In this document: piece after piece, positions 24,345-41,076 of the stretch
Position numbering within the stretch: the stretch's first letter is position 1
How the letters are laid out: every line of letters starts with the position of its first letter
DNA from: Pseudooceanicola marinus
GTDB lineage: Bacteria; Pseudomonadota; Alphaproteobacteria; Rhodobacterales; Rhodobacteraceae
Assembly: GCF_002786295.1 (NCBI RefSeq)
Contig: NZ_PGTC01000016.1
Location: forward strand, 2,501 to 66,500
Length of the DNA: 64,000 nucleotides
Direction: 5' to 3'
Program-made: the position numbers and the translations under genes
Notes under the pieces: model-generated
Databases searched by the model: none
The model's input: the letters and a program-made list of their open reading frames with translations, nothing else
Told to the model about the DNA's origin: nothing

Positions 24345-25222
24345 GTGACAAGGAAGCCTTCGTCGCGCTCGTCACCTGTTTCCATGACGACGAGACGATC
24401 AACTATGGCGCCACTCGCGCCCAGGTGCGGCGCCAGGTGGCCGCCGGCAACAACATCATGTGCGCGGGCACCAACGGTGATTTCTCCGCCCTGACCTTCG
24501 ACGAAAAGGTGCGCCTGTGCGGTGAGGTGGTGGATGAGGTCGGCGGCAAAGCAAAGGTCATCGTCAACGCTGGCATGCCCGCCACCTATGAGACCATCCT
24601 TCTGGCGAAGGAATTCGACCGGATCGGCGTCGACGGCATCGCCGTCATCACGCCCTTCTTCATCGCCTGCACCCAGGACGGGCTGATCCGGCACTTCACC
24701 ACCGTCGCAGATGCGGTGCAAACGCCCGTCTACCTCTATGACATCCCGGCGCGCACCCAGAACCATATCGAGCCCGCCACGGCGCGAACCCTTGCCGCCC
24801 ATGGCAATATCGCGGGTATCAAGGATTCCGGCGGGGCTCAGGACACGCTGGAGGCCTATCTGGCCGTGGGCCGCGCCGTGCCCGGGTTCGACGTCTATTC
24901 CGGCCCCGACCACCTGGTGCACTGGGCGCTGACCAACGGCGCGAAGGGCTGCATTTCCGGCCTCGGGAACGTCATGCCCGAGGTGCTGGCGCGGATCGTC
25001 TCCTGCGTCAACGCGGGCGACGAGGCGGGCGCGGCCGAGGCGCAGAAGACCTTCGGCGATTTCCGCGTGGCGCTGTACAAGCTGGGCTATCCGCCCGCGC
25101 TGGTGAAGCGCGCGCTGTACCTGCGCGATCCATCGGTCGGCGCCTCGCGTCAGCCCGCGCTGCTGCCCGACCCGGAAACGGATCGCGCCATCGAAGAGGT
25201 GCTGGTGGCCTTCGACCTGTAA
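24341..25222 (+). CDS. DapA/N-acetylneuraminate lyase family aldolase
   Basis: 293 residues, a TIM-barrel class I lyase. The Schiff-base Lys is K161 in AGIKDSGG and the catalytic Tyr is Y133 in YLYDIP. The carboxylate-binding GTTGE loop of true DapA reads G-T-N-G-D here (43-47), as in non-DapA family members that cleave 2-keto-3-deoxy acids. Start: ATG at 24341, overlapping the pdxA2 stop; an earlier open frame covers pdxA2 in another frame and is not used. Probably cleaves, dehydrates or condenses a keto acid upstream of the kinase/PdxA2 steps; the substrate is unknown. Confidence 0.9.
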
Positions 25223-26791: not shown

Positions 26792-26837
26792 GGGAACCTC
26801 CGGGGATGTCTGTCCCCATCAGGCTACGCCCTTCGCG

Positions 26838-26915
26838 CCAGAGGAACTCTCTGAACGCCTGCGCCGGCGGAGACGAACTCTCCCTTTGCGCGCGCTGCGC
26901 CAGAGGTTTCCTCTA
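26838..26915. promoter_or_regulatory. Three phased AGAG/CTCT palindromes, probable Lrp operator array
   Basis: Palindromes: AGAG-GAA-CTCT at 26840-26850, GGAGA-N5-TCTCC at 26869-26883, and AGAGG-TTT-CCTCT at 26902-26914. Centres are 31 and 32 bp apart, about three helical turns. The last overlaps the stop codon of the lrp-like gene; the first is about 50 bases from the aldehyde dehydrogenase start. Phased sites of this sort suit an Lrp octamer. Confidence 0.6.
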
Positions 26916-27386
26916 GGCCGGGTCGGGATCGGGCAGGCGCGCGACGTGGCTTTTCACCTGCTTGGTCACCACGTAGGTATAGTAGCGCGCCAGGCCGATG
27001 CCTGCCTCCAGCAGCCCGTCCATGAACCGCTGGTAGGCGTCGATGTCCCTTACCGCCACCAGCATCAGGTAATCGAAGCCGCCGCCAAGGGCCCAGCAGG
27101 CGGCGATTTCCTCGCGCCCCTCGGCCAGCTTCTCAAAAGCGGCGAAATCGGCGGCCTTGTGGCGTTCCAGCTCGACGGTGACGAAGACCTCGACCCCGGG
27201 CACCAGCATCTTCATGTCGATGTCGGCATGGTAGCCGCGAATGACGCCCGCCTCTTCCAGCCGCCGCAGCCGTTCCCAGGTGGGGGTGGGGGACAGGTTC
27301 ACCCGCTGCGCCAGGTCGGATTTGGAGATCCGCCCCTCGCGCGCCAAGACGCGCAGAATGGCGATGTCCCTCTGATCGAGTTTCAC
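26913..27386 (-). CDS. Lrp/AsnC family transcriptional regulator
   Basis: 157 residues: an N-terminal helix-turn-helix (DQRDIAILRVLAREGRISKS, recognition helix in LSPTPTWERLRRLEEAGVI) and a C-terminal RAM domain that binds small molecules such as amino acids. It starts at a GTG (27386) preceded by AAGGAG. It lies 121 bases upstream of the semialdehyde dehydrogenase gene and is divergent from the Rid-family gene. Both neighbours are plausible targets; the phased palindromes at 26838-26915 support the first. Confidence 0.93.
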   Translation of the reverse strand: MKLDQRDIAILRVLAREGRISKSDLAQRVNLSPTPTWERLRRLEEAGVIRGYHADIDMKMLVPGVEVFVTVELERHKAADFAAFEKLAEGREEIAACWALGGGFDYLMLVAVRDIDAYQRFMDGLLEAGIGLARYYTYVVTKQVKSHVARLPDPDPA

Positions 27387-27601
27387 GCAAGGACTCCTTG
27401 GGCGGTGGCGGTGGTTGCCTGCACCCTAGGGCTTTCGCGCGGCCGGGTCCACGGGCGCCGCCCGGGGGGCTCACTCTGCCGATTCCATCGACTGTTCCGC
27501 CGCGCCCATGGCCTTGTGCAGGTGCTTCTTCGCGCCCTTCCGGCCTGTCGCCACGCGTGCTAGCCCTGTCGCATCCCAGAGCAGAGCAGCCCGGAGCCGC
27601 C
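27387..27601. other. Intergenic region between lrp-like and Rid-family genes
   Basis: 215 bases of divergent upstream DNA. A 13-base palindrome, CAAGGA-C-TCCTTG, at 27387-27400 contains the ribosome binding site of the lrp-like gene and could be an autoregulatory site. No clear promoter elements were seen. Confidence 0.35.
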
Positions 27602-27985
27602 ATGAAACCCCTCTCCCCCGACAGCATTTCCGCCCCCTTCGGCAACTATTCCCACGGTATCGCCGCGGGTCCGGTGCTGGTGACCTCCGGCCAGCTGGCT
27701 CTTGGCGCTGACGGCGCGATCCCCGAGGACATCACCGAGCAGTCCCGGATGTGTTTCGACGCGGTTCTGGCGATCCTGGCCGAGGATGGGCTGGACGCCT
27801 CCGACGTGCTGCGTTTCTCGGCCTTCGTGACCAGACGCGAGGACATGAAGCCCTACATGGCCGTGCGCGACGAGGTCTGCGCCGGCCTGGCCGTCAAACC
27901 CGCCTCCACCCTGATGATCGTCTCGGGCTTCACCCGGCCGGAGTTCCTGGTGGAGGTCGAGGCCCTCGCCCTGCGCCGGGGCTGA
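27602..27985 (+). CDS. Rid family protein (YjgF/YER057c/UK114), Arg-lacking subgroup
   Basis: 127 residues with the chorismate-mutase-like Rid fold: GPVLVTSGQLALGADG near the N-terminus, the FDAVLAILAEDGLDASDVL helix region and the closing FLVEVEALAL. RidA enamine/imine deaminases need an Arg after P-A near the C-terminus; here the segment reads PASTLMIV, so this Arg is missing. That places it among Rid subgroups without proven imine deaminase activity. Start 27602 follows GGAGCC and gives the standard length. It is divergent from the Lrp-type gene. Confidence 0.88.
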   Translation: MKPLSPDSISAPFGNYSHGIAAGPVLVTSGQLALGADGAIPEDITEQSRMCFDAVLAILAEDGLDASDVLRFSAFVTRREDMKPYMAVRDEVCAGLAVKPASTLMIVSGFTRPEFLVEVEALALRRG

Positions 27986-27996
27986 GCCCACGTGCA

Positions 27997-28026
27997 AACG
28001 GCCGCGCCCCGGGGGGCACGGCCGTT
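27997..28026. terminator. Bidirectional terminator between convergent genes
   Basis: AACGGCCG at 27997-28004 pairs with CGGCCGTT at 28019-28026 around a C/G-rich inner stem. It lies between the Rid-family stop (27985) and the stop of the minus-strand NTF2-like gene (28047). Confidence 0.75.
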
Positions 28027-28046
28027 GCCGTTTCATGTCGCTCTGC

Positions 28047-28691
28047 TCACTCGGCCGGGCAGGTGTTGATCGGCGCGGCCTTCACGATGGGGAAACAGCT
28101 TTCCCATTCCTCGGTGCGAGCGGGCCAGGGGGTCAGCACCTCGGGGCTTTCGGCCAGTTGAAGCACGCCCAGGGCCTGCAGGTCCTTCACCCGGCCATCC
28201 AGGTATTCCTTGATGACGCTGATCTTGCCATCCGCCACATGGGCCACCCAGACGTCGTTCACCACCTGGCGCGAGCCGCGCTGGAAGGTGCGGAACTGCA
28301 GCTCGGCGGCGATGCGGCCGGTTTCGGTGTCGACGAAGAAGGCATCGGCGGGCAGGTAGATGCTGGTGTCCTTGGCCATGTCGCAGAAGGCCGCCAGGTC
28401 TTCCAGCATCGTGTCGCGCCCGGTGTAGGAGGTCGTGGGGTAGGAGAAGGCCACGTCCTCGGTCACCGTGGCTTCCATCAGCTCGGCGTTGCAGGCCGCC
28501 CAGGAGGAGGCAAGGTCGAGGATCAGCCCCTCCATCTCGGCGCGATCGGGGTCTTCGGACAGGGTGCCGGCATAGGTCACGCCGGGGCGCACCTCGGTGA
28601 CCTCGGCCAGGGCGGGCAGGGCGGCGAAGGCGGCGAAGGTGGTGAAGGCGGCAAGGGCGGCGCCGGTCGCGAGGGACGTCAGCTTGGTCAT
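28047..28691 (-). CDS. Secreted SnoaL/NTF2-like protein
   Basis: 214 residues. Residues 1-29 form a signal peptide ending in LPALA. The mature part resembles the NTF2-like/SnoaL fold: an alpha helix rich in acidic residues (DRAEMEGLILDLASSWAACN), a YTGRDTMLEDL segment and beta strands with VVNDVWVAHVADGKI. Several Cys residues are present in the mature part, consistent with disulfides in the periplasm. No catalytic role can be assigned. The gene stands alone between two terminator-like regions. Confidence 0.75.
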   Translation of the reverse strand: MTKLTSLATGAALAAFTTFAAFAALPALAEVTEVRPGVTYAGTLSEDPDRAEMEGLILDLASSWAACNAELMEATVTEDVAFSYPTTSYTGRDTMLEDLAAFCDMAKDTSIYLPADAFFVDTETGRIAAELQFRTFQRGSRQVVNDVWVAHVADGKISVIKEYLDGRVKDLQALGVLQLAESPEVLTPWPARTEEWESCFPIVKAAPINTCPAE

Positions 28692-28822
28692 GGTCTTTCC
28701 TCTCTGTTTTCACTTCCGTCGATTATCGAGCGACGGTTCGTAATACGACTATCGGAGGGCAGCTTTCCCGCCCGCGCAACGGGGAAGAGGGGATTTCGCG
28801 GCGCAGGCCCCTGCGCGCCGAC

Positions 28823-29647
28823 CTAGCTGCCAGCTTCGCAGGCAGTCGCCGCGATATTGGCCAGAAGGCAGCCGGTGGTGACCGGGCCCACCCCATCGGG
28901 CACATGTGTGACCGTCACATCGCGATCCGCCAGCGCGGCCAGGTCCACATCGCCGATCACCCCGTGGGCGCCGCGATTGATCGACACGTCCAGCACCACC
29001 GTCCCATCGGCCAGGTGATCCGGCCCGATCAGCCCGGCGCGCCCGGCGGCGGTGATGACGATCTCCGCGCCCCGGGTGTGGGCTGCCAGATCGCGGGTGT
29101 CCGCGTGGGTCAGGGTCACCGTGGCGCCCGCGTCCAGCAGAAGCTGTGCCAGGGGCCGGCCGACGATACGCGAGGCGCCCACCAGGACGACCTCCCGGCC
29201 GGTCAGTGGCCCGGCGATGTCTTCGGCGATCAGACGGCAAGCCCGCGCGGTGGCCGGTGCCCGGGCCGGGGCGCCAAGGGCCAGAAGGCCGGCGTTTTCC
29301 GGGTGCAGCCCGTCGATGTCCTTGGCAGCCCCCAGGGTGAGGGCCGCCTGCAGCGGATCCACGCCGGCGGGCAGGGGATAGAGGGTCGCCACGGCGTCCA
29401 GGGTGGCATCCGCGGCGAGGGTGGCCAGCCGGGGCAATACTTCGGCGGCCTGCGGATAGCTCTCCGTCTCTAGGTCGATCCCCGCCGCGACCGCGCTGTC
29501 GGCCAGGCGTGCGCCATAGGCCGCCATGCCCGCGTTGCTGCCGTCCAGCAGCACCCGGCAGCGCGGCGCCCGGCCCAGCTCCGCCACCCGGGCCTGCGTC
29601 TCCGCGTTCAGCCTTGCCGCCAGCGCCGTGCCGTTGAAGATCCGCAT
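28823..29647 (-). CDS. FolD-like methylenetetrahydrofolate dehydrogenase lacking cyclohydrolase residues
   Basis: 274 residues with the FolD fold and an intact dinucleotide motif (VVLVGASRIVGRPLA), KDIDGLHPEN, and the C-terminal VPDGVGPVT. In ordinary FolD the active site uses Tyr, Lys four residues later, and Gln of the QLPLP motif. Here Y44 is kept, but the Lys position is L48 and the QLPLP motif reads L-Y-P-L-P, with Leu (L89) at the Gln position. Loss of both predicts a dehydrogenase without cyclohydrolase activity, or a new substrate. The start at 29647 has GAGG eight bases upstream and lies 10 bases after the IclR stop, so the two are one operon. Confidence 0.85.
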   Translation of the reverse strand: MRIFNGTALAARLNAETQARVAELGRAPRCRVLLDGSNAGMAAYGARLADSAVAAGIDLETESYPQAAEVLPRLATLAADATLDAVATLYPLPAGVDPLQAALTLGAAKDIDGLHPENAGLLALGAPARAPATARACRLIAEDIAGPLTGREVVLVGASRIVGRPLAQLLLDAGATVTLTHADTRDLAAHTRGAEIVITAAGRAGLIGPDHLADGTVVLDVSINRGAHGVIGDVDLAALADRDVTVTHVPDGVGPVTTGCLLANIAATACEAGS

Positions 29648-29657
29648 CCCGCCCACC

Positions 29658-30422
29658 TCAGAAGGTCGAGCTGACATGGGCGGCGCAGCTTTTCAGCCGC
29701 GTGATGCTGTCGGCGCGCTGCTGCGCATCCAGCTGGCCCTGTTCGAAGATGATCGACACGGCGCCGATCACCGAATTCAGGCCGGGATCGAAGACCGGCA
29801 CGGCCAGCGAGCCCACGTCCGCCACATATTCGCTGTCGGTCTGGGCAAAACCCTGGGCGCGCACCTCGTGCAGGGCGTCGAGGAAGCGGGCGCGGTCGGT
29901 CTGGGTGCGGTCGGTGAAGGCGGCGAAATCCATGCCGTCCAGGATCTCGTCGCGCCGTGCCTCGTCGAGGAAGGCCAGGATCGCCCGCCCGGCGGCCGTG
30001 GGCGCCAGCGGTACCCGCGTCCCGATCGCCACGCGGTTCAGGGTGAACTGCGACGGCAGGAAGGTATGGGCCACGTAGACCGCATCGGTGTCGTCCAGCA
30101 TGGCGAAGCTGACCGACTGGCCGATCTCCTCCGCCGCCAGGCGCAGGATCGGCTGGATGATCTGGGCGATGCCGCGCCCCTCGATGAACCCCTGGCTGAG
30201 GCGCAGGACATGGGGCGTCACCTCGTACCGGCCGCGGTCGCTGGTCAGGTAGCCCAGCTGTTCCAGCGTGCGCACCAGCCGCCGGGTGACCGCGCGGTTC
30301 AGCCCGACCTTCTCCGCGATCTCCGAGATGGTGATCGAGCGATCCCGCGCGTCGAAGGCCAGCAGCACGTTCAGCCCCTTGGCGAAGGTCAGGGAGATTT
30401 CCTTGTCGTTTTCGTTCAGCAT
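29658..30422 (-). CDS. IclR family transcriptional regulator
   Basis: 254 residues: an N-terminal winged helix (FAKGLNVLLAFDARDRSITI, then GLNRAVTRRLVRTLEQLGYL) and a C-terminal effector-binding domain (GLNSVIGAVSII near the end). The ATG at 30422 gives the family's normal length; an upstream open frame to 30611 adds no homology. It is divergent from the creatininase operon and upstream of a folD-like gene. Two related TGTTCG-type motifs lie in the divergent region, placed so that the regulator could control both operons. Confidence 0.93.
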   Translation of the reverse strand: MLNENDKEISLTFAKGLNVLLAFDARDRSITISEIAEKVGLNRAVTRRLVRTLEQLGYLTSDRGRYEVTPHVLRLSQGFIEGRGIAQIIQPILRLAAEEIGQSVSFAMLDDTDAVYVAHTFLPSQFTLNRVAIGTRVPLAPTAAGRAILAFLDEARRDEILDGMDFAAFTDRTQTDRARFLDALHEVRAQGFAQTDSEYVADVGSLAVPVFDPGLNSVIGAVSIIFEQGQLDAQQRADSITRLKSCAAHVSSTF

Positions 30423-30803
30423 CGGGGTCCTTCGCAGGGCAGGCGTGGTCGGATCGGGCCGTATGCGGCCCTTGCGTCCGAGAGGGGCGGCAGGGCGCCA
30501 CCGTCCGCGATAGCGGTTTTTCCTGTTCGATAATAGAGCGAACTTCCCGGCGGCGCCCAAAAACAGGGCGTGTGCAAGTGCTGGTTCAGGGCAAAGGCAA
30601 CTGTCATACACATCAATTGAGGCGCCGATTTTACCGTGGAAGGCCTTGTTTATAGGCGTATAGCGCGACGCAGGCCAAGGCGCGCGCGCCCAGGTGCTGA
30701 TATTTTGCGCCTTGACCCACTGAGGGTATGCCGTAACGTATTCCGATCAAATGCTCGAATAACGAACAATTCAGGCCGGACGACAGAAAAGACAGCGCTG
30801 CCC
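30423..30803. promoter_or_regulatory. Divergent control region with two IclR-type candidate operators
   Basis: 381 bases without a gene. Motif 1, TGTTCGATAATAGAGC on the plus strand at 30524-30539, continues into CGAAC, giving GTTCG-N9-CGAAC. Motif 2, TGTTCGTTATTCGAGC on the minus strand, occupies 30753-30768. They match at 13 of 16 positions. Motif 1 overlaps TATTAT on the minus strand, a possible -10 for the iclR-folD operon. Motif 2 lies just after a possible plus-strand promoter, TTGACC (30712) with TAACGT 16 bases on (30734), and 36 bases before the creatininase start. Both positions suit repression. Confidence 0.55.
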
Positions 30804-31619
30804 ATGCCCTTCACCGACTGGACCTCTCTCAAGACCACGGATTTCGCCGGGATCGACACCGCCCGCGCGGTGGCGTTGCTGCCGGTGGGGGCGTCGGAAC
30901 AGCACGGGCCGCACCTGCCGCTGTCGACCGACAGCGTGCTGGGCGAGGGGGTGGCCCGCGCCGCCGGGCCTCGCGTCGAGACCGCGGATGTCTACCTGCT
31001 GCCCACGATCACCTATGCCAAGTCGGACGAACATCTGTCCTATCCGGGCACGCTGACCCTCTCCGCCGAAACCCTGATGGCGACGCTGGTGGAGATCGGT
31101 CGTTCCGTCGCGCGCGCCGGGGTGAAGCGGCTGGTGCTGCTCAACGCCCATGGCGGCAACGTGCCGGTGCTGCAGATCGTGGCGCGGCGGTTGCGGATCG
31201 AGGAAGGCATGATCTGCGTCACCGCCGGCTGGGTCACGATGGGCTATCCGCAGGGCCTCGTCACGCCGCAGGAGGCCGTGCAGGGCATCCACGGCGGCTT
31301 TGTCGAAACGGCGGCTATGCTGCACCTGGCGCCGGATCTGGTGGATATGTCGAAGGCCGATAACTTCGTGCCCGCCTCCGCCCGGGTGGCGGAAGAGAAC
31401 GAGGTGTTGCGCACGTTGGGCCCGGTCGGCATGGGCTGGGTGTCGCAGGACCTGCATCCGTCCGGGGTGGCCGGCAATGCCGCCGCCGCCACGCCGGAAG
31501 CGGGCCGGGCGCTGATCGACCATGCCGCCACGCGCTATGCAAAACTTCTCGACGAGGTCGCGGCACATCCCTTGCCCGATCCGGTGATCCCCGCCGGATC
31601 CGCGGGGCCCGCCGCATGA
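30804..31619 (+). CDS. Creatininase family amidohydrolase
   Basis: 271 residues. Metal-binding residues of the creatininase fold are visible: E32 and H34 in SEQHGPHLP, D43 in LSTD, H116 in NAHGGN, and Glu in GGFVETAAM. The family opens cyclic amides (creatinine to creatine) and includes formamide hydrolases such as ArfB and the MftE peptidase, so the exact substrate is open. The ATG at 30804 is the first that aligns with the family start. It overlaps the next gene (ATGA). First gene of an operon extending to 38788. Confidence 0.9.
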   Translation: MPFTDWTSLKTTDFAGIDTARAVALLPVGASEQHGPHLPLSTDSVLGEGVARAAGPRVETADVYLLPTITYAKSDEHLSYPGTLTLSAETLMATLVEIGRSVARAGVKRLVLLNAHGGNVPVLQIVARRLRIEEGMICVTAGWVTMGYPQGLVTPQEAVQGIHGGFVETAAMLHLAPDLVDMSKADNFVPASARVAEENEVLRTLGPVGMGWVSQDLHPSGVAGNAAAATPEAGRALIDHAATRYAKLLDEVAAHPLPDPVIPAGSAGPAA

Positions 31620-32914
31620 GCCTGCCCGCGATTCCCACCCGTGGCGCCTACCTGATGCGCAACGCCCTGGTGCCGGTCGGCCTGTGCCGGGGGCTGGAGG
31701 TTTCCGCCGCGACACAGGGTCTGGCCCGCGCCGATATCCTGGTGCGCGACGGGCGCTTCCATTGCCCGGATCCCCAGGCCGATCGGGCCCCGGCCCTGAC
31801 GGTGGTCGATCTGGACGGGCGCCTGCTGTTGCCGCGTTTCGTCGACATGCACACCCATATCGACAAGGCCTATACGGTGAGCCGCACCGGCTTTTCCTCC
31901 GATGGGCTGAGCTCCGCCGTGGCGCTTTGGGCCGCGGGGCAGGAGGGGCGTACGCTCGACGATGACATCGCCCGGATGGAGCGGTCATTGGCCACCGCAG
32001 AGGCCCAGGGCACCCGCGCCCTGCGCACCCATCTGGACACCCGCGGCGCCCCCGCCGACACCCCCTCCTGGCAGGCCTACGCCGAGGTCGCGGGGCGCTG
32101 GCGGCATCGCCTGCACCTGCAGGCCGTCGCGCTGACGGCGCTGTTCCGGGTGGAGGAACCCGATTTCGCCGCTCGCTGTGCGGCCCTGGCCGAGATGGGC
32201 GCCACCCTGGGCGCCTTCGTCGAGGCAGACGCCACGCCGGCGCTGATCGACCGGCTGTTCGGCCTGGCGACGGATCACGGGTTGGACCTCGACCTGCACG
32301 TCGACGAGACCCTGGACCCGGAGGCGAGGGGGCTGGAGCTGCTGGCCGAAACGGCGATCCGGCGCGGCTTCTCGGGGCGGATGGTGGCCGGCCATTGCTG
32401 CGCCCTGGCCCAGATGCCGCAGGCGCGGCGCGATGCGGTGATCGCCAGGGTAGCCGAGGCCGGGATCGAGGTGGTCTCGCTGCCCGCCACCAACGGTTTC
32501 CTTCAGGATCGCGCCCCGGGCCGCACCGGCCTGCTGCGCGGCCTGGCGCCGGTGCAGGAACTGGCCGCCGCCGGCGTGCCGGTCGCCTTCGCCTCCGACA
32601 ACGTGCGCGATGCCTTCTACCCCTTTGGCGCCTACGACATGATCGAGGCGCTGCGCCTGGGGATATTCATGGGGCAGCTGGAGGCGGAGCCGGCCCACTG
32701 GCTGGCCGCCGTCACCGCGACGCCCGCCCGCGCCATGGGCCTGCCCGACACCGGGCGCCTGGTGGCCGGTGGCCCGGCCGAGGCGGTGCTGTTCGACGCC
32801 CGCGACTGGGCCGATCTCCTCAGCGGTACGGCATTGCCGCGCCTCGTGCTGCACGACGGTGCGCCGCTGGCCGCCGGCGCAAGCCGCACCGAACCCCAAT
32901 GGGAAACTGCATGA
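31616..32914 (+). CDS. Cytosine/creatinine deaminase-type amidohydrolase
   Basis: 432 residues of the CodA-like metal-dependent amidohydrolases. Active-site residues line up with cytosine deaminase: H79 and H81 in DMHTHIDK, H228 and E231 in HVDET, H260 in AGHC, and D328 in ASDNVRDAFYPFG. Some CodA relatives deaminate creatinine to N-methylhydantoin, which is notable beside a creatininase gene. The start overlaps the upstream stop and its own stop overlaps the FAD oxidase start, so translation is coupled across three genes. Confidence 0.9.
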   Translation: MSLPAIPTRGAYLMRNALVPVGLCRGLEVSAATQGLARADILVRDGRFHCPDPQADRAPALTVVDLDGRLLLPRFVDMHTHIDKAYTVSRTGFSSDGLSSAVALWAAGQEGRTLDDDIARMERSLATAEAQGTRALRTHLDTRGAPADTPSWQAYAEVAGRWRHRLHLQAVALTALFRVEEPDFAARCAALAEMGATLGAFVEADATPALIDRLFGLATDHGLDLDLHVDETLDPEARGLELLAETAIRRGFSGRMVAGHCCALAQMPQARRDAVIARVAEAGIEVVSLPATNGFLQDRAPGRTGLLRGLAPVQELAAAGVPVAFASDNVRDAFYPFGAYDMIEALRLGIFMGQLEAEPAHWLAAVTATPARAMGLPDTGRLVAGGPAEAVLFDARDWADLLSGTALPRLVLHDGAPLAAGASRTEPQWETA

Positions 32915-34326
32915 TGACCACCGACACCCCCGAGCTTGCCGCCAACCTCTCTGCCCTTCGCGATGCCCTGGCCGATTTCGACATCGACGAGAACCCCCGC
33001 TCGGTGCAGCAGAAAAGCCGCGACTTCTACTGGTACAGCCCGATTCTGAAGGACATGCTGAAGGATGTCTGCGCCGACCTGGTCATCGCGCCCCGCAGCG
33101 AGGCCGAGGTGATCGAGATCCTGCGCCTCTGCCACGCCCACGACGTGCCCGTCACCGTGCGCGGCGCCGGCACCGGCAATTACGGCCAGGCCATGCCACT
33201 GGCCGGCGGGGTCCTGCTGCACATGCGCCACATGACCGAGATCCTGACGCTGGAACCGGGCCGCCTGGTCGCCCAGCCCGGCGCCATCATGAAGACGATG
33301 GAGGCCGCCGCGCGGGACAAGGGGCTGGAGCTGCGGCTGTTCCCCTCCACCACCGCCACCGCCACCATCGCGGGCTTCATCGCCGGCGGCTCGTCGGGCA
33401 TCGGTGCGATCCGCTGGGGCGGGCTGCGTACGCCGGGCAACATCCTGCGCCTGCGCCTGGTCACCATGGAGGCCGAGCCGCGCATCGTCGAGTTGACCGG
33501 CGAGGACATCTTCAAGGCGGCGCATGCCTATGGCGTCAATGGCGTCATCACCGAGGTCGAGGTGCCCGTGGACCCGGCTGAGGATTGGGTCGAGGCGCTG
33601 ATCGGCACCCGCGATTTCGCCGCCGCCACGCGCCTCAGCTTCGCCATCGGCAGGGCCGAGGGCATCGTGAAACGCATGGTCTCCACCTTCGAGCCGGAGA
33701 TCCCCGAGCGCTTTTTCAACCGCTACACCGAGTTCACGGTGAAGGGCGAGGCGGCCGTCGCGGTCATCGTCACCCGCGACAGCCTGGAGGCGCTGGAGGC
33801 TCTGGTCGCCGCCGATCCGGAGACAACGATGCGCTTCCGCTCGGACCGGGACCTGGGCGAGCGTCGCCTGGTCTCGCTCTATGAATACGCCTGGAACCAC
33901 ACCACCCTGCGCGCCCGCAAGGTGGACCCGTCGATCACCTACCTGCAGATGATGCTGCCGCAGGATGACATCTACGGCGTGATGGAGCGCCTGAAGACCG
34001 ATTTCGGCGACGAGATCGTGCTGCACCACGAATTCACGCAGTTCTCCGGCAAGGTGGCCGCCGTCACCCTGCCGCTGCTGCGCTATTCCAGCGACGCGCG
34101 CATCGAAGAGGTGATCGCGCTGCTGGAAGCCGACTACGGGATCACCGTCTTCAACCCGCATCGTGTCACCCTCGAAGAGGGCGGCATGAAGAAGACCGAT
34201 CCCGCCCAGCTTGAGTTCAAGCGCCAGACCGACCCGAAGGGGCTGCTCAACCCGGGCAAGATGATTGCCTGGACCGATCCGGACTGGGTGCCGGAGCCGG
34301 GGCGCGCCTTCCTGTTCAACCACTAG
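32911..34326 (+). CDS. FAD-binding oxidoreductase, PCMH/GlcD type
   Basis: 471 residues. The FAD-binding PCMH domain spans about 50-230, with DLVIAPRSEAEVIEIL, the FAD loop VTVRGAGTGNYGQAM, and FIAGGSSGIGAIRWGGL. The C-terminal half resembles the substrate-binding cap of glycolate/lactate oxidases and ends in a GLLNPGKMI segment typical of the family. It would oxidise a hydroxy acid or amine-type intermediate. The start ATG overlaps the amidohydrolase stop (ATGATGA). A quinone reductase gene follows, but 67 bases with a GC hairpin intervene. Confidence 0.9.
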   Translation: MMTTDTPELAANLSALRDALADFDIDENPRSVQQKSRDFYWYSPILKDMLKDVCADLVIAPRSEAEVIEILRLCHAHDVPVTVRGAGTGNYGQAMPLAGGVLLHMRHMTEILTLEPGRLVAQPGAIMKTMEAAARDKGLELRLFPSTTATATIAGFIAGGSSGIGAIRWGGLRTPGNILRLRLVTMEAEPRIVELTGEDIFKAAHAYGVNGVITEVEVPVDPAEDWVEALIGTRDFAAATRLSFAIGRAEGIVKRMVSTFEPEIPERFFNRYTEFTVKGEAAVAVIVTRDSLEALEALVAADPETTMRFRSDRDLGERRLVSLYEYAWNHTTLRARKVDPSITYLQMMLPQDDIYGVMERLKTDFGDEIVLHHEFTQFSGKVAAVTLPLLRYSSDARIEEVIALLEADYGITVFNPHRVTLEEGGMKKTDPAQLEFKRQTDPKGLLNPGKMIAWTDPDWVPEPGRAFLFNH

Positions 34327-34393
34327 CTCCGGGGCGCGCCACCCGCGGCGCGACGCCCCGCCCGGATGAAAGAGACACGAAAGACGCCGCATC

Positions 34394-34975
34394 ATGAAAG
34401 TGCACGTGATCTACGCCCACCCCCAGGAGACCTCGCTGGCCTCGACCCTGCATCAGACCGTGGTGCAGGGGCTGACCGAGGCCGGGCATGAGGTGGATGA
34501 CCTCGACCTCTATGCCGACAACTTCGACCCGGTCCTGTCGCGCGAGGACCGGGAGGACTATCACGACATCACCATCAACCGCCGCAAGGTGGCGGATTAC
34601 GTCGACCGACTGATGTCCTGCGACGGGCTGGTGCTGTGCCACCCGGTGTGGAACTTCGGCTGGCCGGCGATCCTGAAGGGCTACTTCGACCGGGTCTTCC
34701 TGCCCGATGTGTCTTTCAAGCTGACCGATGGCCAGCTGGGCCCGGGCCTGGGCAACATCAAGAAGCTGGCGACGGTCACCACCTACGGATCCAAGCGCTA
34801 TCGTGCCATGTTCCTGGGCGATCCGCCGCGCAAGAACGCCACCCGCTTCCTGCGGGTGGTCTGCAACCCGCGCGTCAAGGTGCAGTACCACGCGCTCTAT
34901 GACATGAACAACGTGACGCAGGCGCAGACCAGCGCCTTCATCGGCAAGGTGCATGACGCCATGCGCAAATTCTAA
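34394..34975 (+). CDS. NAD(P)H dehydrogenase (quinone), flavodoxin-like fold
   Basis: 193 residues matching the MdaB/KefF/NQO1 group of FMN/FAD quinone reductases: the N-terminal VHVIYAHPQETSLASTLHQ phosphate-binding loop, LVLCHPVWNFGWPAILKGYFDRVF in the middle, and the flavin-contact region TTYGSKRY. It may reduce a quinone or an intermediate by two electrons. It sits between the FAD oxidase and ABC importer genes in the same direction. Confidence 0.88.
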   Translation: MKVHVIYAHPQETSLASTLHQTVVQGLTEAGHEVDDLDLYADNFDPVLSREDREDYHDITINRRKVADYVDRLMSCDGLVLCHPVWNFGWPAILKGYFDRVFLPDVSFKLTDGQLGPGLGNIKKLATVTTYGSKRYRAMFLGDPPRKNATRFLRVVCNPRVKVQYHALYDMNNVTQAQTSAFIGKVHDAMRKF

Positions 34976-34996
34976 GACCCCCGCAAGGAGCCAGAC

Positions 34997-35803
34997 TTGA
35001 GCGCAGATTCCACATCCACCACGGCACCGGAAGGGCAGGCGGCCGCAGACGGGGCGTCCCTTCCCGGGGGCAACGCCATCGTCTTCGACCATGTCTCGAT
35101 GACCTTTCCCGACGGCACCGAGGGGCTCAGTGACGTAAACCTTGCCATCGCCCCGGGCGAGTTCGTCTCGATCGTCGGCCCCTCGGGCTGCGGCAAGTCC
35201 ACCCTGCTGAAGGTCGCCTCGGGCCTGGTCACCCATACGGGTGGCAAGGTCTGGGTCGACCGCGACCAGCTGGGCTACACCTTCCAGGACGCCACCCTGC
35301 TGCCCTGGCGCAAGGTGCAGGACAACGTCGAGCTGCTGATGGAGCTGCGCGATTTCCCCGCCGAGGAACGCCGCCGCATCGCCGCCGAGAAGATCGAGCT
35401 GGTCGGCCTGACGGGGTTCGAGAACCACTATCCGCAGCGCCTGTCGGGCGGCATGAAGATGCGGGTCTCGCTGGCCCGTTCGCTGGCGCTGAACCCGGCC
35501 GTCTTCATGTTCGACGAACCCTTCGGCGCGCTGGACGAGATCACCCGCGAACGCCTGAACGACGAGGTGATCGACCTCTTCGTGCGCGAAGGCTTCACCG
35601 GGATCTTCGTCACCCACTCGATCCCCGAGGCGGTCTACATGTCCTCGAAGGTCGTGGTGATGTCGCGCCGCCCGGGCCGTATCCAGGACATCTTCGAGGT
35701 GCCCTTCGCCTATCCCCGTGCGCCCGAGATGCGCTACCAGGCGGATTTCTCGGAACTCTGCGGAGAGATCTCCCTCTCCCTGCGCAAGGCCATCGAGGGA
35801 TGA
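34997..35803 (+). CDS. ABC transporter ATPase, NitT/TauT family
   Basis: 268 residues with Walker A GPSGCGKST, signature LSGGMKMRVSLARSL, Walker B FMFDEPFGALDE and the H-loop VTHSIPEA. This pattern is typical of nitrate/taurine/aromatic-type importers (SsuB, TauB, ThiZ relatives). Translation apparently starts at TTG (34997), with AAGGAG upstream. Its stop overlaps the permease start (ATGA). It energises uptake of the substrate degraded by the operon. Confidence 0.93.
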   Translation: MSADSTSTTAPEGQAAADGASLPGGNAIVFDHVSMTFPDGTEGLSDVNLAIAPGEFVSIVGPSGCGKSTLLKVASGLVTHTGGKVWVDRDQLGYTFQDATLLPWRKVQDNVELLMELRDFPAEERRRIAAEKIELVGLTGFENHYPQRLSGGMKMRVSLARSLALNPAVFMFDEPFGALDEITRERLNDEVIDLFVREGFTGIFVTHSIPEAVYMSSKVVVMSRRPGRIQDIFEVPFAYPRAPEMRYQADFSELCGEISLSLRKAIEG

Positions 35804-36693
35804 ACGACATGAGCGACACGCAGATCCCCGCGGACACCGGCAAGCATCGCCGGGCCAATATCGAAAGCCACGAGGCCACCCCCGTCGCGCCGCCGCCCAG
35901 CGTGACGCGCCGACTGGTGACGAACCTGGTGCCGCCGATCCTCGCCGGCATCCTGGTGATCCTGGCCTATGCCTGGGTGCGCTCGGGCCTGCCGCCGCAC
36001 CGGCAGTTCCTCATGCCCTCGGGCACCGGGATCTGGGAGCTGGCCTTCGGCATCCCCGATTTCGTGCTGGAGCTGCTGCGCCGCTCCGTCACCACCATGG
36101 CGATTGCCGTCACGGGGCTGGGCCTCTCGATCTCCTTCGGCTGTGTCATGGGCATCGTGATGTTCCGTTTCCTTTTCCTGGAAAAGGCCATCTTCCCCTA
36201 CCTCGTGGTGCTGCAATCGGTGCCGGTCCTGGCCATCGTGCCGCTGATCCAGTCCGCGCTCGGCTTCGGCTTCATGCCCAAGGTGCTGATCGTGGCGCTG
36301 TTCACCTTCTTCGCCGTGCCCACGACGCTGCTGCTGGGCCTGAAATCGGTCGACCGCAACATCCTCAACCTGTTCAAGCTGCAGAATGCCAGCTGGTGGG
36401 TCACCCTGCGCAAGGCCTGCCTGCCCTTCGCGGGCCCCACGCTTTTCGCCGGTTTCTCGATTTCCGGCTCGCTCGCCGTCATCGCCGCCATCACCTCCGA
36501 GCTGTTCTTCCTCTCGGGCGAGGGCGGTCTCGGCCAGCTCCTGATGAATGCAAAAATCGACTTCAAGTACGAGCAGATGTACGCGGCGCTCATCATGGCC
36601 TCGGTCCTGTCGATCGCCGTCTACCTCTTCTTCAAATGGCTGGGTAACCGGCTCTTCTCCCATTGGCACGAAGCCTCGGGCAAACAACAATAA
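35800..36693 (+). CDS. ABC transporter permease, NitT/TauT family
   Basis: 297 residues: a cytoplasmic N-terminus, about six membrane helices from residue 48 on, and the EAA loop in LFKLQNASWWVTLRKACLPFAGP. It forms the channel with the ATPase encoded upstream (4-base overlap). Confidence 0.93.
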   Translation: MNDMSDTQIPADTGKHRRANIESHEATPVAPPPSVTRRLVTNLVPPILAGILVILAYAWVRSGLPPHRQFLMPSGTGIWELAFGIPDFVLELLRRSVTTMAIAVTGLGLSISFGCVMGIVMFRFLFLEKAIFPYLVVLQSVPVLAIVPLIQSALGFGFMPKVLIVALFTFFAVPTTLLLGLKSVDRNILNLFKLQNASWWVTLRKACLPFAGPTLFAGFSISGSLAVIAAITSELFFLSGEGGLGQLLMNAKIDFKYEQMYAALIMASVLSIAVYLFFKWLGNRLFSHWHEASGKQQ

Positions 36694-36752
36694 AGCAACC
36701 GGGCCGCGGCCCAACGCGGTCCTTCCCTCTCCCCCAACCAACAGGGTGACAC

Positions 36753-37907
36753 ATGAAACATACGGTCAAATCCGTTTCTCTCGCGGCGCTGCTGGCGGCC
36801 TCGGCTTCCGGCGCGGCCATGGCCGGCGACTTCGCGGCGGCGAACTACACCACCGATCTGTCGGGCGTCTGCCCCGACCCGCTGATCGTGCAGCTGGACT
36901 GGCTGCCGCAGGCGGAACAGGGCGGCATATGGCAGATGATCGGCGAGGGCGGCGAGATGACGCCGGGCTCCTACCAGGGTCCGCTCGGCTCCACCGGCAT
37001 CGACCTGCAGATCCTGTCGGGCGGCGGCGGCATCGGCCTGGGCGACGGCGAAACCGCCTATTCCGCGCTCTTCATGGGCAACTCCAAGGCCGGCGTCATG
37101 CCGCACCTGGGCTACCAGGAGCTCGACAGTTCCTTCATCTTCTCCAAGCGGTTCCCGACCGTCGGTGTCTTCGCGCCCCTCGACGTGGCGCCGACCGTGC
37201 TGTTCTGGGACGCGGCCACCTATCCCGGCGGCTTCTCCTCCATCGAGGATCTGGCGGCGCTGGCCGACACCGACGACGCCAAGATCTACGTCTCGACCGT
37301 GGGCCGGACCTTCGGCAAGTACCTGGTCGACTCGGGCGTGCCCAAGGAGGTCTTCGTCGAGGGCTACAAGGGCGACGGCGAGAACTTCGTCACCAACAAC
37401 GGCCAGTGGCTGAACCAGGGCTTCGTCACCTCCGAGGTCTACAAGTTCGAGAATGGTCTGAACTGGGAAAAACCCATCGACTTCCTGAAGATCGACGACC
37501 TGGGCTATCGCAACTACACCGGCATCGTCTCGGTCGCGACATCGCGCCTGGAAGAGCTGTCGCCCTGCCTGACCGGCGTTGTGCCGATCATGCAGCAGGC
37601 CGCCGTCGACTATGCCACCGACCCGGCGGAGACCAACGCCACCATCGTCGCCTTCAACGATGCGGAGATGGCGACCTCCTGGTGGAAGACCGCGCCGGAC
37701 CTGATGGAATACGCCGCGGAAACCATGGTCGCCGAAGGCGTCATCGGCAACGGTTCTGACGACACCGTCGGCAACTTCGACATGGAGCGCGTGGCCGAGA
37801 TGCTGGAGATCGTCACCCCCAGCCTCGACGAACGCTCCGAGGCCGATGTGACCCCCGAGATGGTCGTCACCAACCAGTTCATCGACCCCTCGATCGGGCT
37901 GGAGTGA
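36753..37907 (+). CDS. ABC transporter substrate-binding protein, NMT1/THI5-like
   Basis: 384 residues with a signal peptide (MKHTVKSVSLAALLAASASGAAMA, cleavage about residue 24). The mature domain starts the family's first strand with LIVQLDWLPQAEQGGIW and continues with a GDGETAYSALFMGNSKAGVMPHLG segment. Relatives bind pyrimidine precursors, riboflavin, aromatic sulfonates or similar ring compounds. The insert around MTPGSYQGPLGSTGIDLQ lengthens it relative to simple NMT1 proteins. The stop overlaps the folD start. Confidence 0.9.
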   Translation: MKHTVKSVSLAALLAASASGAAMAGDFAAANYTTDLSGVCPDPLIVQLDWLPQAEQGGIWQMIGEGGEMTPGSYQGPLGSTGIDLQILSGGGGIGLGDGETAYSALFMGNSKAGVMPHLGYQELDSSFIFSKRFPTVGVFAPLDVAPTVLFWDAATYPGGFSSIEDLAALADTDDAKIYVSTVGRTFGKYLVDSGVPKEVFVEGYKGDGENFVTNNGQWLNQGFVTSEVYKFENGLNWEKPIDFLKIDDLGYRNYTGIVSVATSRLEELSPCLTGVVPIMQQAAVDYATDPAETNATIVAFNDAEMATSWWKTAPDLMEYAAETMVAEGVIGNGSDDTVGNFDMERVAEMLEIVTPSLDERSEADVTPEMVVTNQFIDPSIGLE

Positions 37908-38788
37908 TGAGTGTCCTGCGCAGCGCCACCCTGCTCGACGGCGATGCCCTGGCAGAGGGGCTGCGCAGGCAGATGACAGCCCGGGCGGCGCAGCTGCGCC
38001 GCCACGGGATCACGCCCTGCATGGCGACGGTGTTGGTGGGCGAGAATGTCGCCAGCGCCTCCTACATCGGGCGCAAGCATGCCGATTGCGCCGAGATCGG
38101 CATCGAGGCCCGCGACATCCGCCTGCCCGCCGACACCGCCATGCCCGCGCTGCTGGATCAGGTGGCGGCGCTGAACGCGGAGGCGGCGGTGCACGGGCTG
38201 ATGGTGCAGCTGCCGCTGCCCGGCGCGCTGGACGACGACACGGCGCTGGCGGCGGTATCGCCCGCCAAGGACATCGACGGGCTGCACCCGGAAAACCTCG
38301 GGCGGCTACTGGCCGGTGCGCCGGACCTGCTGACAACGGGCCTCCTGCCCTGCACCCCCCATGCCATCCTGCAACTGCTGCGCCACCACGCAGTGCCGCT
38401 TTCGGGCGCCCGCGTGGCGGTGATCGGGCGGGGGCCTCTGGTGGGCCGCCCGCTGGCCATGCTGCTGTCGCTGAAAGGCATCGACGCCGAGGTCACGCTG
38501 CTGCATAGCGCCTCGCGCGATCTGGCCGAGGTGACCCGCCGCGCTGACGTGGTCATTGCCGCGGCTGGCCAGCCGGGCCTGGTCACGGCCCAGATGATCC
38601 GCCCCGGCGCGGCCGTGGTGGGCGTGGGCATCACCTATGGCGCCGACGGTCGCATGGTGTCCGACATCGCCGCCGACGTGGCCCGGGTCGCGGGCTGGGT
38701 CACACCGCCGCACGGATCTGTCGGCGCCCTGACCCGCGCGGCCCTTCTGCAGAACCTGCTCATGATCGCAGAGCGCGACCTCGCCTGA
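37907..38788 (+). CDS. folD: Bifunctional methylenetetrahydrofolate dehydrogenase/cyclohydrolase
   Basis: 293 residues. It converts 5,10-methylene-THF to 10-formyl-THF using NADP. Catalytic residues are all present: Y53 and K57 in ASYIGRKHAD, Q101 in the QLPLP motif and the Asp of KDIDGLHPEN. The dinucleotide loop is VIGRGPLVGRP, with Gly in place of the usual Ser, and the C-terminal TPVPGGVGPMT is diverged to TPPHGSVGALT, so it is probably not the housekeeping copy. The ATG at 37907 overlaps the binding-protein stop (TGATG); a GTG at 37904 is an alternative. It closes the creatininase operon. Confidence 0.9.
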   Translation: MSVLRSATLLDGDALAEGLRRQMTARAAQLRRHGITPCMATVLVGENVASASYIGRKHADCAEIGIEARDIRLPADTAMPALLDQVAALNAEAAVHGLMVQLPLPGALDDDTALAAVSPAKDIDGLHPENLGRLLAGAPDLLTTGLLPCTPHAILQLLRHHAVPLSGARVAVIGRGPLVGRPLAMLLSLKGIDAEVTLLHSASRDLAEVTRRADVVIAAAGQPGLVTAQMIRPGAAVVGVGITYGADGRMVSDIAADVARVAGWVTPPHGSVGALTRAALLQNLLMIAERDLA

Positions 38789-38791
38789 GGC

Positions 38792-38920
38792 CTGACGCCC
38801 GACATCGAAGGCCTGTCGGTGCTGCAGCCAGATCTGGTGATCGCCCCCGACCGCTCCGCGTCGGCCTATGACGGCGCCGCCCAGGTCGCGCCGATCATTG
38901 ACCTGACCATGATCCCACGC
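38792..38920 (+). pseudogene. Remnant of an iron-siderophore periplasmic binding protein
   Basis: An in-frame fragment reads LTPDIEGLSVLQPDLVIAPD, followed by R-S-A-S-A-Y-D-G and QVAPIIDLTMIP. The pattern (P-D-I-E-x-L-x-x-L-x-P-D-L-V-I, then APIIDL) matches the centre of FecB/FepB-like siderophore-binding proteins. No start, signal peptide or C-terminal half exists here. It begins three bases after the folD stop. Confidence 0.55.
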
Positions 38921-38924
38921 TGCT

Positions 38925-39194
38925 GTTTTGCCCCCGGTCATCAAGAGGCTGAATGCGGTCGACTTGAACTGGTTTCGCGGACGGCGGAAAGAGATGCGCT
39001 CGCACCCGCTCCGATCGCGCTGCCAGAGGACCTTCCTGCGCTCTACCGGGGATCTGGTCGGGACGCTCACAGATGACGCCGTCGCGGGCCCCGCAGCTGA
39101 TGAGCTGCATATGCTGATCGATACGGTCGTTGTCACCTGGGATGCTGAGGAGCGTATTCACTGGCTGGAGGTGCAGGGCAAGCTGCTGGAGTGA
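38925..39194 (+). pseudogene. Frameshifted C-terminal remnant of a large serine recombinase
   Basis: Two frames together read as a recombinase tail. The first, to about 39050, contains a coiled-coil-like RLELVSRTAERDALAP and ALPEDLPALYR. The second, from about 39050 to the stop at 39194, contains DLVGTLTDDAVAG and DELHMLIDTVVVTW, ending LEVQGKLLE. The family ends with P-N-L-x-x-x-Y-R, then a helix, LI-x-x-V-x-V-T, then a final L-x-G-x-L strand. A single frameshift near 39050 separates the parts. The catalytic N-terminus is absent. It lies 60 bases from tRNA-fMet. Confidence 0.55.
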
Positions 39195-39212
39195 CTCAGT
39201 GTCACGGACATC

Positions 39213-39243
39213 AAAAAAGCCACTACCCTCTCAGGTGCGGCTT
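39213..39243 (-). terminator. tRNA-fMet terminator
   Basis: On the minus strand AAGCC pairs with GGCTT around an imperfect inner stem, followed by TTTTTT. It lies 13 bases after the tRNA 3' end. Confidence 0.6.
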
Positions 39244-39255
39244 GTTCGATAGAAT

Positions 39256-39332
<77 letters not shown>

Positions 39333-39699
39333 CCAATCTCCGTTGGGGCGTCGCCCCGTCGGTGAAGCACGATCTATCGTCTCGGCCGGGGAGGTGCAAG
39401 GGGCTGTGAGAGGATTTTTGACAAAAACGTAAAACGGTGGGGGCAGACCGCTGTCGCGCAGGGGATTTTCAGGAATATACACATGAAAACAAGGTGGTGC
39501 CGGGCGCTGACTCGCGGGGCCGCACGCCTTTTGTCGCGATTCGGGATCTCCCCTGCTGCCTGCGGTTGCCCGCGCCCTGCCGTCGTCATCGGAACAGCGC
39601 GACTCGCCCCAGTCTTACCTTGATGCGTTGACCCGCAGGAAAGGGCTGGATCGCGCCCCGGCCTCTCTCCTATGCTGCCGGACGGAGAGGAGACCGGGG
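39333..39699. promoter_or_regulatory. Upstream region of tRNA-fMet and of the NtrC-like regulator
   Basis: 367 bases without a supported gene. A plausible tRNA promoter lies on the minus strand: TTGCAC (39394-39399) and TAGATC (39371-39376) separated by 17 bases. On the plus strand a TTGACA at 39418 has no matching -10. A 46-codon open frame from about 39483 has no ribosome binding site or homology. GGAGAGGAG precedes the regulator start at 39700. Confidence 0.4.
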
Positions 39700-41073
39700 A
39701 TGCAGATCGTGGAGGAGCGACGGGAGGCGGGCGAGGGCACGCTGACGGATCATCTGCGCGCCGCGCGGGTGCTGGTCGTCGACGACGAACCGGGTATGCG
39801 CAATTTCCTGGTCAAGGTGCTGACCCCCTATTGCCGGGAGGTGGCCGAGGCCGCCGATGCGGCCCAGGCCGGCGCCTGCCTGGCGGAGCGGCATTTCGAC
39901 ATCATGATTCTCGACAACATGATGCCCGGCCAGACCGGCATCGACTGGCTGGCCGAACAGCGCGAACGCGGCGGGTTCACCGACACGATCATGGTCACCG
40001 CCTATGCCGATCTGGAAACGGCGATCGAGGCGATGCGCGCGGGCGCCTCGGATTTCGTGCTGAAACCCTTCCGGTCCAACCAGCTGCTGAATGCCGTGCG
40101 GCGCTGCATGCAGATGGCGGCCCTGCGGCGGGAAAACACCCTGCTGCGCCGCGAGCTGGAGAACACCGACCTGGGGCGTCGGCGGCGGCATGAGCTGGTT
40201 GGCACCTCCCGCGCGCTGGAGGAGGTGCGTGCCTCCCTCGACCGGCTGAAGGATATCGACACGCCGGTGCTGATCACCGGCGCCTCGGGCACCGGCAAGG
40301 AGGTGGCGGCGCGGCACCTGCATCACATCTCCGCCCGCGCCAGCCGGCCCTTCGTGCCGATCTCCTGCGGGGCGATTCCGGCCGAGATGATCGAGATGGA
40401 ACTCTTCGGCCATGCCCCCGGCGCCTTTCCCGGCGCCGGAGAGGGGCGCGAGGGGCTTCTGGCCTCCGCGCAGGGGGGCACGGTGTTCCTGGATGAGGTC
40501 GCCGGGCTGGGGCCCGCGGCGCAGACCGCGCTGCTGCGGGTGCTGGAGGACGGGATGATCCGCCCCGTGGGCACGGAACGCGACACGCAACTGGACCTGC
40601 GGTTCGTGCTGGCCACCTCGAAGGACCTGGCCCGCGAGGTGGCCGAGGGACGTTTCCGCGAGGATCTGCTGTTCCGAATCAACGTGCTGGAGCTGCGCAT
40701 GCCGCCCCTGTCGCGGCGCGAAACCGACGTGATCGAGCTGGCGGAGCTGTTCCTGGAGGAACTGGGCGCACGCCTGCGCCTGGCGCCGCTGACCATCGAC
40801 AGCGCCACCCGTGCCGCCATGCTTCGACACGACTGGCCCGGCAACATCCGCGAGCTGCGCAACTTCATCGAACGCTCGCTGATCTTCGGGCGCTTCCCGC
40901 TGGAAACCCTGGCGCCCGCGCGCGGCGAGGAGATCGCGCCGCTGGACGAGGTGGAGCGGCGACAGATCCTGACCGCGCTGGAGGCCGTGGGCGGCAACCG
41001 GACCGAGGCGGCCCGGCGCCTGGGCGTCTCGCGCAAGACCATCGACCGCAAATGCGCGGCCTGGGGCCTCTGA
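39700..41073 (+). CDS. NtrC-family response regulator with altered GAFTGA loop
   Basis: 457 residues: a receiver domain (acid pair D28/D29, phosphoacceptor D72 in ILDNMMPG, K122), an AAA+ domain (Walker A GASGTGKE at 194-201, Walker B VFLDEV near 265, Arg finger region FREDLLFRINVL) and a Fis-type HTH (GNRTEAARRLGVSRKTIDRK). The sigma-54 contact loop, normally GAFTGA, reads GAFPGA (241-246). Loss of this Thr usually abolishes sigma-54 activation, so the protein may act on sigma-70 promoters as HupR and NtrC of Rhodobacter capsulatus do. It is followed 3 bases later by its probable kinase. Confidence 0.93.
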   Translation: MQIVEERREAGEGTLTDHLRAARVLVVDDEPGMRNFLVKVLTPYCREVAEAADAAQAGACLAERHFDIMILDNMMPGQTGIDWLAEQRERGGFTDTIMVTAYADLETAIEAMRAGASDFVLKPFRSNQLLNAVRRCMQMAALRRENTLLRRELENTDLGRRRRHELVGTSRALEEVRASLDRLKDIDTPVLITGASGTGKEVAARHLHHISARASRPFVPISCGAIPAEMIEMELFGHAPGAFPGAGEGREGLLASAQGGTVFLDEVAGLGPAAQTALLRVLEDGMIRPVGTERDTQLDLRFVLATSKDLAREVAEGRFREDLLFRINVLELRMPPLSRRETDVIELAELFLEELGARLRLAPLTIDSATRAAMLRHDWPGNIRELRNFIERSLIFGRFPLETLAPARGEEIAPLDEVERRQILTALEAVGGNRTEAARRLGVSRKTIDRKCAAWGL

Positions 41074-41076
41074 ACC

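Follow-up and report, generated by a model that had tools for sequence, protein, structure and literature searches.

We analyzed a stretch of 64,000 nucleotides from Pseudooceanicola marinus (Rhodobacteraceae; contig NZ_PGTC01000016.1), referred to below as the window. Positions 27602-38788 hold a gene cluster whose probable role is the uptake and degradation of a pteridine, most likely folate or a folate-derived pterin. Its core, on the forward strand, encodes a creatininase-family metal hydrolase (30804-31619; PF02633, 240 bits), a CodA-like amidohydrolase (31616-32914; Amidohydro_3/1 and PRK07583), a flavin adenine dinucleotide (FAD) enzyme with the FAD_binding_4 domain (32911-34326), and a Flavodoxin_2 NAD(P)H oxidoreductase (34394-34975; PF02525, 110 bits). 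The same direction is continued by a NitT/TauT-type importer, consisting of an ATPase (34997-35803; PF00005 ABC_tran, with taurine and nitrate ATPases as the best NCBIfam matches, under their cut-offs), a permease (35800-36693; PF00528 BPD_transp_1) and a substrate-binding protein (36753-37907), and by a FolD paralogue, FolD2 (37904-38788). An IclR family regulator (29658-30431) and a second, divergent paralogue, FolD_div (28823-29677), are encoded on the reverse strand.

All genes named in a preliminary description of this DNA are present in the list of open reading frames (ORFs) at the positions given there, and the ORF list and Pfam also confirm the gene-to-gene overlaps and the divergent iclR-folD pair. 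Overlaps of four bases lie at 31616-31619, 32911-32914, 35800-35803 and 37904-37907, and a longer one, of 20 bases, is shared by folD and iclR (29658-29677). Three genes had been overlooked: the Flavodoxin_2 gene, located between the FAD enzyme and the ATPase, and two further genes that extend the locus to 27602. One of these encodes a RidA family protein (27602-27985, forward strand; Ribonuc_L-PSP, PF01042, 71 bits), a likely imine/enamine hydrolase by family. The other encodes a SnoaL-like protein (28047-28691, reverse strand; PF12680, 28.3 bits against a cut-off of 27) whose N-terminus, judged by eye, resembles a signal peptide. Since its relatives adjoin the equivalent cluster in L015 (82%), G208 (67%) and G692 (68%), the SnoaL-like gene was assigned to the unit.

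Loci with related FAD enzymes were fetched by a contig scan with an alignment of four such enzymes, yielding at least 571 confirmed relatives, and the gene content of the best 80 (L015-L094) was mapped by tblastn. The FAD enzyme is present in all 80 by construction, and some loci stop at a contig edge. This search for conserved neighbourhoods, proposed in the preliminary description, found the creatininase family in 77 of the 80 loci, together with the deaminase (80/80), the Flavodoxin_2 family (76/80) and RidA relatives (66/80, as well as L005, G208, G234 and G692). The creatininase-family, deaminase, FAD, Flavodoxin_2 and RidA genes occur all together in 61 loci. Because these loci were fetched by the FAD enzyme alone, the association is beyond chance, and the core is a conserved unit. 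Its common form is frequent among soil and marine alphaproteobacteria, and an equivalent gene set is also found on a Comamonadaceae plasmid (L096). The Klebsiella plasmid L097 carries the gene set with an annotated PDR/VanB oxidoreductase and no Flavodoxin_2 match within 19 kb, which would fit an exchangeable electron partner. Some loci depart from this layout: in L050 and in L078 the family is represented by two distinct FAD enzymes, and one of these adjoins the creatininase-family gene, and Rhizobium johnstonii pRL11 (L095) combines a CodA-like deaminase with an ATP-binding cassette (ABC) importer and a 2-oxoglutarate/iron oxygenase, with no FAD-enzyme match in 19 kb. No paper on a creatininase/deaminase/FAD gene cluster was found in searches of the open-licence PubMed Central (PMC) literature; to judge from its available part, a paper on a creatininase-family formamidase of Sinorhizobium and Brucella (PMC9478397) concerns something other than this cluster.

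The FAD enzyme provides the main clue to the substrate. It matches the Protein Data Bank chain 6v42_A over residues 12-470 (E 7e-146), with 49% identity over the full length. Its predicted model (mean predicted local distance difference test score, pLDDT, 80.6) superposes on 6v42 with template modelling (TM) scores of 0.90/0.91 in Foldseek. Thus, the homology to the 6v42 family is full-length. The entry is entitled 'Crystal structure of the flavin oxygenase with cofactor bound involved in folate catabolism'. In a tree of 91 FAD enzymes, from which G233 and G692 were left out, 6v42 belongs to a group of 13 rows (support 100/98), formed by Mesorhizobium enzymes and one Rhizobiaceae enzyme, that represents the common cluster form. 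The window enzyme falls into a separate group of eight rows (support 100/100). The family is present in 87 of 248 genomes of the family sample (E 1e-60, with identities down to 32%), and at the same threshold the window genome has a single enzyme of this kind. Because the FAD enzyme resembles 6v42, which is nested in the common cluster form, breakdown of a pteridine (pterin or folate) fits the cluster better than breakdown of an N-methylated amide. The preliminary description had treated the pathway as a candidate undescribed one; homologous neighbourhoods turn out to be largely assigned already, by way of a deposit title rather than a paper. The kind of pathway is known only in outline, and the variant in the window appears to be new.

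The deaminase falls narrowly under the cut-off of the CodA-like model PRK07583 (392.6 bits against 403); a common-form deaminase, L028, scores 702.6 bits. It also matches E. coli cytosine deaminase chains at E 5e-30, and it is the one deaminase of its kind in the window genome at E 1e-15. Apart from a few exceptions, its HxH, HVDE-type, GH and SDN motifs persist both in clade A, the branch of the window cluster described below, and in the remaining rows. Pterin deaminases belong to the CodA-like amidohydrolases, and the window protein is a probable pterin-type deaminase. The Martelella limonii locus L110 has, about 5.2 kb onward, two tandem CodA-like deaminases close to an ABC ATPase and a further creatininase-family gene (48%); this may be a third version of the cluster, divergent from the others.

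In the hydrolase, the metal-site residues Glu32, His34, Asp43 and His116 are conserved in all nine clade A rows and all 73 other rows. Because the metal-site and active-site motifs are kept with few exceptions, the hydrolase and the deaminase are both predicted to be catalytically competent. After the metal-site His120, solved creatininases have the functional residues Tyr121-Glu122; the window protein has Gly117-Gly118 at this place, and the corresponding HGGN motif is found in 9/9 clade A rows. The score on the creatininase model TIGR04448 is 98.3 bits against a cut-off of 235, and on the MftE model TIGR03964 it is 140.6 bits against 172. The shortfall on TIGR04448 and the Gly-Gly replacement speak against 30804-31619 as a creatininase proper.

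Counted over all loci and not only the best 80, ten clusters form clade A: the window, L005 (Nitratireductor OM-1), G208, G234, G233, L015 (Martelella limonii), L016 (Nitratireductor alexandrii), L017 (Aquamicrobium aerolatum), L018 (Chelativorans ZYF759) and G692 (L166). The contig of G233 is just 4.7 kb long, and L018 stops at a contig end. The IclR gene is found in nine of the ten clusters (none on the G233 contig), and a characteristic binding protein likewise in nine (none on the L018 contig). When the window proteins were compared with Pfam and NCBIfam, the binding protein matched no family at E 0.001, the NMT1-type model PF09084 included, and phmmer found no match among solved structures at E values up to 1. 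In profile comparison with eight other cluster binding proteins, it gave a probability of 99.4 (E 4e-21), which makes it a distant relative of the NMT1-type binding proteins encoded in the common cluster. It is rare, with matches in 4 of 248 family-sample genomes, the own one included (E 1e-20), and in 1 of 385 class-sample genomes, the own one only (E 1e-30). The Flavodoxin_2 gene is kept in all six clade A clusters that carry a FolD pair. A DAO-type oxidase gene occupies its place in L005, L017 and L018, and L016 and G208 carry both genes. Martelella limonii has a clade A cluster (L015) as well as a common-form one (L109, where a 16 kb stretch gave no match to creatininase or RidA), so clade A probably serves a different substrate or a different form of it.

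The window cluster is unusual in its FolD pair. Outside the cluster, a single FolD of the genome exceeds the curated cut-off; it lies on contig C24 and has every canonical motif, so both cluster FolDs are extra. The pair occurs in six of the ten clade A clusters (the window, G208, G234, L015, L016 and G692), and tblastn mapping found FolD in 0/76 other loci, that is, the best-80 set minus its clade A members. A search of the family sample with FolD_div gave matches in 17 of 394 genomes at E 1e-45, of which 4 are cluster copies and 13 are housekeeping FolDs. These 13 and the own C24 copy served as a reference set, in which 14/14 proteins carry the complete Tyr-x-x-x-Lys, Gln, GRS, HSRT and PGGVGPMT motifs (in E. 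coli numbering, the catalytic residues are Y50, K54 and Q98). Both cluster proteins have the two FolD Pfam domains. FolD2 keeps the catalytic Tyr/Lys and Gln, the Arg and the His-Ser in all six copies, while HGSVGALT or a similar sequence replaces the C-terminal PGGVGPMT in each of them. FolD_div has lost the Lys (replaced by Leu, Gln or Ile), the Gln, the GRS Arg and the HSRT Ser in 6/6 copies, and PxGVGPVT is kept in 6/6. In FolD, the GRS Arg and HSRT Ser bind the NADP phosphate. Judged by these residues, the pair is reciprocally degenerate. In E. coli FolD, the K54N variant retains about 19% of dehydrogenase activity with undetectable cyclohydrolase, and Q98H retains about 8% and 1%, respectively (PMC5688156). 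Given these results and the loss of both residues, FolD_div is predicted to lack cyclohydrolase activity. Recent FolD duplications are described for some prokaryotic lineages, with nothing on this pair in the available portion of the source (PMC11064299).

That the genes form a single catabolic unit, equipped with an importer and controlled by the IclR regulator, was also proposed in the preliminary description, and upstream sequences support this. The closest NCBIfam model of the regulator is TIGR02431 (PcaR/PcaU/PobR; 198.3 bits against a cut-off of 284.75). A motif chosen after inspection of these gaps, GTTCGWTAWT with at most one mismatch, is found upstream of the creatininase-family gene in eight of nine clade A loci (not in G208; G233 was left out), compared with other loci, where it turns up in 5 of 73 upstream regions of 320 bp. 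Its density is 5.2 sites per kb upstream and 0.15 elsewhere in the same clade A loci. In the window, one operator-like site, GTTCGATAATAGAGC, lies at 30525-30539 on the forward strand, and the second at 30753-30767 on the reverse strand, 36 bp ahead of the ATG of the creatininase-family gene. The longer form GTTCGWTAWTNGNNC matches three times in the window. Two of these matches are perfect, and both fall within the iclR-creatininase gap; in a shuffling test, 2 of 100 shuffles gave as many as three matches. The motif resembles PcaR-type operators. Plain inverted repeats were uninformative.

Additional modules accompany part of clade A. Of the clade A loci, five have hydantoinase A/B genes, four a ureidoglycolate-lyase-like gene, and three (L005, G208 and L017) a Rieske oxygenase together with a glutamine-synthetase-like gene; none of these genes is found in the 76 other loci. 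In the window genome, the ureidoglycolate-lyase-like, hydantoinase A/B, Rieske and glutamine-synthetase-like genes lie on contig C10 at about 533-551 kb (L141, L142), where they make up a second catabolic locus together with an IclR gene, a DAO oxidase, and TctABC and TRAP transporters. The Rieske domain is here a separate ORF, and separate genes are annotated likewise in Pseudooceanicola algae. The glutamine-synthetase-like protein is 46% identical to that of Delftia pLME1, a chloroaniline plasmid, where an amidotransferase, Rieske alpha and beta subunits and a reductase are its neighbours. In Palleronia, the glutamine-synthetase-like/Rieske module adjoins the pca (protocatechuate) genes. By analogy, action of this module on the p-aminobenzoate half of folate would fit. 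On the own contig of the cluster (C16), about 38 kb beyond it, 78.5-79.8 kb holds a protocatechuate 3,4-dioxygenase beta gene that passes its curated cut-off and a weaker adjoining match. A paper on the p-aminobenzoyl-glutamate hydrolase of E. coli touches on folate breakdown (PMC5082436).

From these data we infer the following order of steps. The ABC importer would take up the pteridine, and the CodA-like enzyme would strip the 2-amino group, converting a pterin to a lumazine type. The FAD enzyme would then oxidize the ring, with the Flavodoxin_2 protein as the likely electron partner; the creatininase-family hydrolase would open a ring amide, and RidA would hydrolyze the resulting imine or enamine with release of ammonia. 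The IclR protein may sense the compound or an intermediate and control both directions from the 30432-30803 gap. The extra FolDs would mark the rare branch as acting on folates that still bear a one-carbon unit: FolD2 keeps the residues for cyclohydrolase activity, and FolD_div might be a dehydrogenase or a partner subunit. Tentatively, the IclR branch may even be a dedicated pathway for intact one-carbon-loaded folates, in which FolD would be split into a cyclohydrolase-type FolD2 and the Lys/Gln-less FolD_div, and these, as a heterodimer or as two single-function enzymes, would strip the one-carbon unit before the pterin ring is destroyed. If true, these bacteria would, with the glutamine-synthetase-like/Rieske module, dismantle both halves of vitamin B9.

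Another explanation, compatible with pteridine breakdown, concerns the FolD pair only. It would handle formaldehyde or methylene-tetrahydrofolate released by demethylation, either of an N-methylated pterin or through Rieske/DAO chemistry, rather than a one-carbon folate substrate. The Rieske and DAO genes indeed adjoin the clade A clusters in L005, L017 and G208 and are found on the own contig C10. However, G234 and Martelella have the FolD pair with no Rieske match at E 1e-20, and L005 and L017 have the Rieske gene with no FolD in the stretch covered, which makes this explanation rather doubtful.

It is unlikely that the same chemistry serves another pyrimidine-containing compound, such as lumichrome or flavin, the thiamine pyrimidine or an oxidized nucleobase. 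The common-form binding protein matches Pfam NMT1/THI5, a family named after thiamine-pyrimidine synthesis proteins, and RidA with ring-opening genes suits uracil-like rings by analogy with the Rut pathway. However, the FAD family has one solved member, whose entry assigns it to folate catabolism, and we know of no role for FolD in the breakdown of any of these compounds, which counts against them. Least probable is the preliminary proposal of an N-methylated amide or ureide, such as creatinine or N-methylhydantoin, whose methyl carbon would pass into folate: the creatininase and CodA families do occur together, FolD is present, and hydantoinase A/B, the ureidoglycolate-lyase-like gene and the DAO-type oxidase accompany some clade A loci, but the hydrolase falls far short of the curated creatininase model and has Gly-Gly for Tyr-Glu, the FAD enzyme belongs to the folate-catabolism family, and loci with the same core have no FolD in 76 cases of 76. 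The presence of FolD is more readily explained if folate is the substrate; that a methyl group passes into folate is the less likely option.

Several observations weigh against the assignment to folate or pterin breakdown. The function of 6v42 is taken from the deposit title alone; no paper on it was found in the open-licence PMC literature, and one may exist outside. The window enzyme belongs to the other branch of the tree, and the tree program flags long branches in this family, including L010 of clade A. Three of the ten clade A clusters (L005, L017 and L018) have no FolD in the stretch covered, with L018 lying at a contig end, and G233 is too short to judge. The ligand specificity of the binding protein is putative; its predicted model is poor (mean pLDDT 44.3). 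The presence of both branches in Martelella limonii means that their substrates may differ. Finally, the likeness of the window deaminase to the known pterin deaminase Arad3529 is putative. Four CodA-like genes match in the R. rhizogenes genome, any of which may be Arad3529, and the stretches around three of the four had no creatininase or FAD match.

An Rfam scan of 26000-40000 found nothing besides a tRNA at 39259-39332. The region 39256-43035 contains this tRNA-Met followed by an apparent NtrC-type response regulator and sensor kinase, as seen from ORF translations only. On the other side, 20200-25222 holds an iron-type alcohol dehydrogenase, an SBD_N/NBD_C kinase-like gene, a DHDPS-family gene and, in between and judged by translation only, a PdxA-like gene; this looks like a separate catabolic operon.

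Dismantling of folate and pterins by bacteria past the first deamination is poorly described, and the conserved cluster points to specific genes of common rhizobia and marine alphaproteobacteria as candidates for what follows. The paper on Arad3529, in the Journal of the American Chemical Society, reportedly spoke of an undescribed pterin degradation pathway. In the open-licence PMC literature on folate and pterin catabolism, one paper alone bears directly on bacterial pterin deamination, and its available part states that the degradation mechanism is not fully elucidated (PMC9513972). The enzymes described there, Arad3529 and the pterin deaminase (PDA) of Variovorax sp. F1, are deaminases of cyclic amidines that act on folate, as is predicted for the window protein; in V. 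paradoxus, genes named 'endoribonuclease', a RidA-type name, lie downstream of the predicted PDA genes. They differ in that the accessible portion of the paper mentions no creatininase, FAD enzyme or FolD partner (PMC9513972).

Likeness to the other known systems is also partial. With creatininase (1j2t, 3a6e) the hydrolase shares PF02633 and the aligned Glu/His/Asp/His metal site, and differs in the Gly-Gly pair and in the score on TIGR04448. With 6v42/6v43 the FAD enzyme shares 49% of its residues and the fold (TM 0.90), and the nearest relatives of 6v42 share the gene neighbourhood; 6v42 itself, however, belongs to the common form, whose observed loci have NMT1-type binding proteins and lack FolD, whereas the window enzyme belongs to the IclR branch. 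Finally, FolD2 and FolD_div both have the domain composition of bifunctional FolD, but opposite conserved motifs are lost in the two proteins; the pair would be a natural experiment separating the two activities of a textbook bifunctional enzyme.

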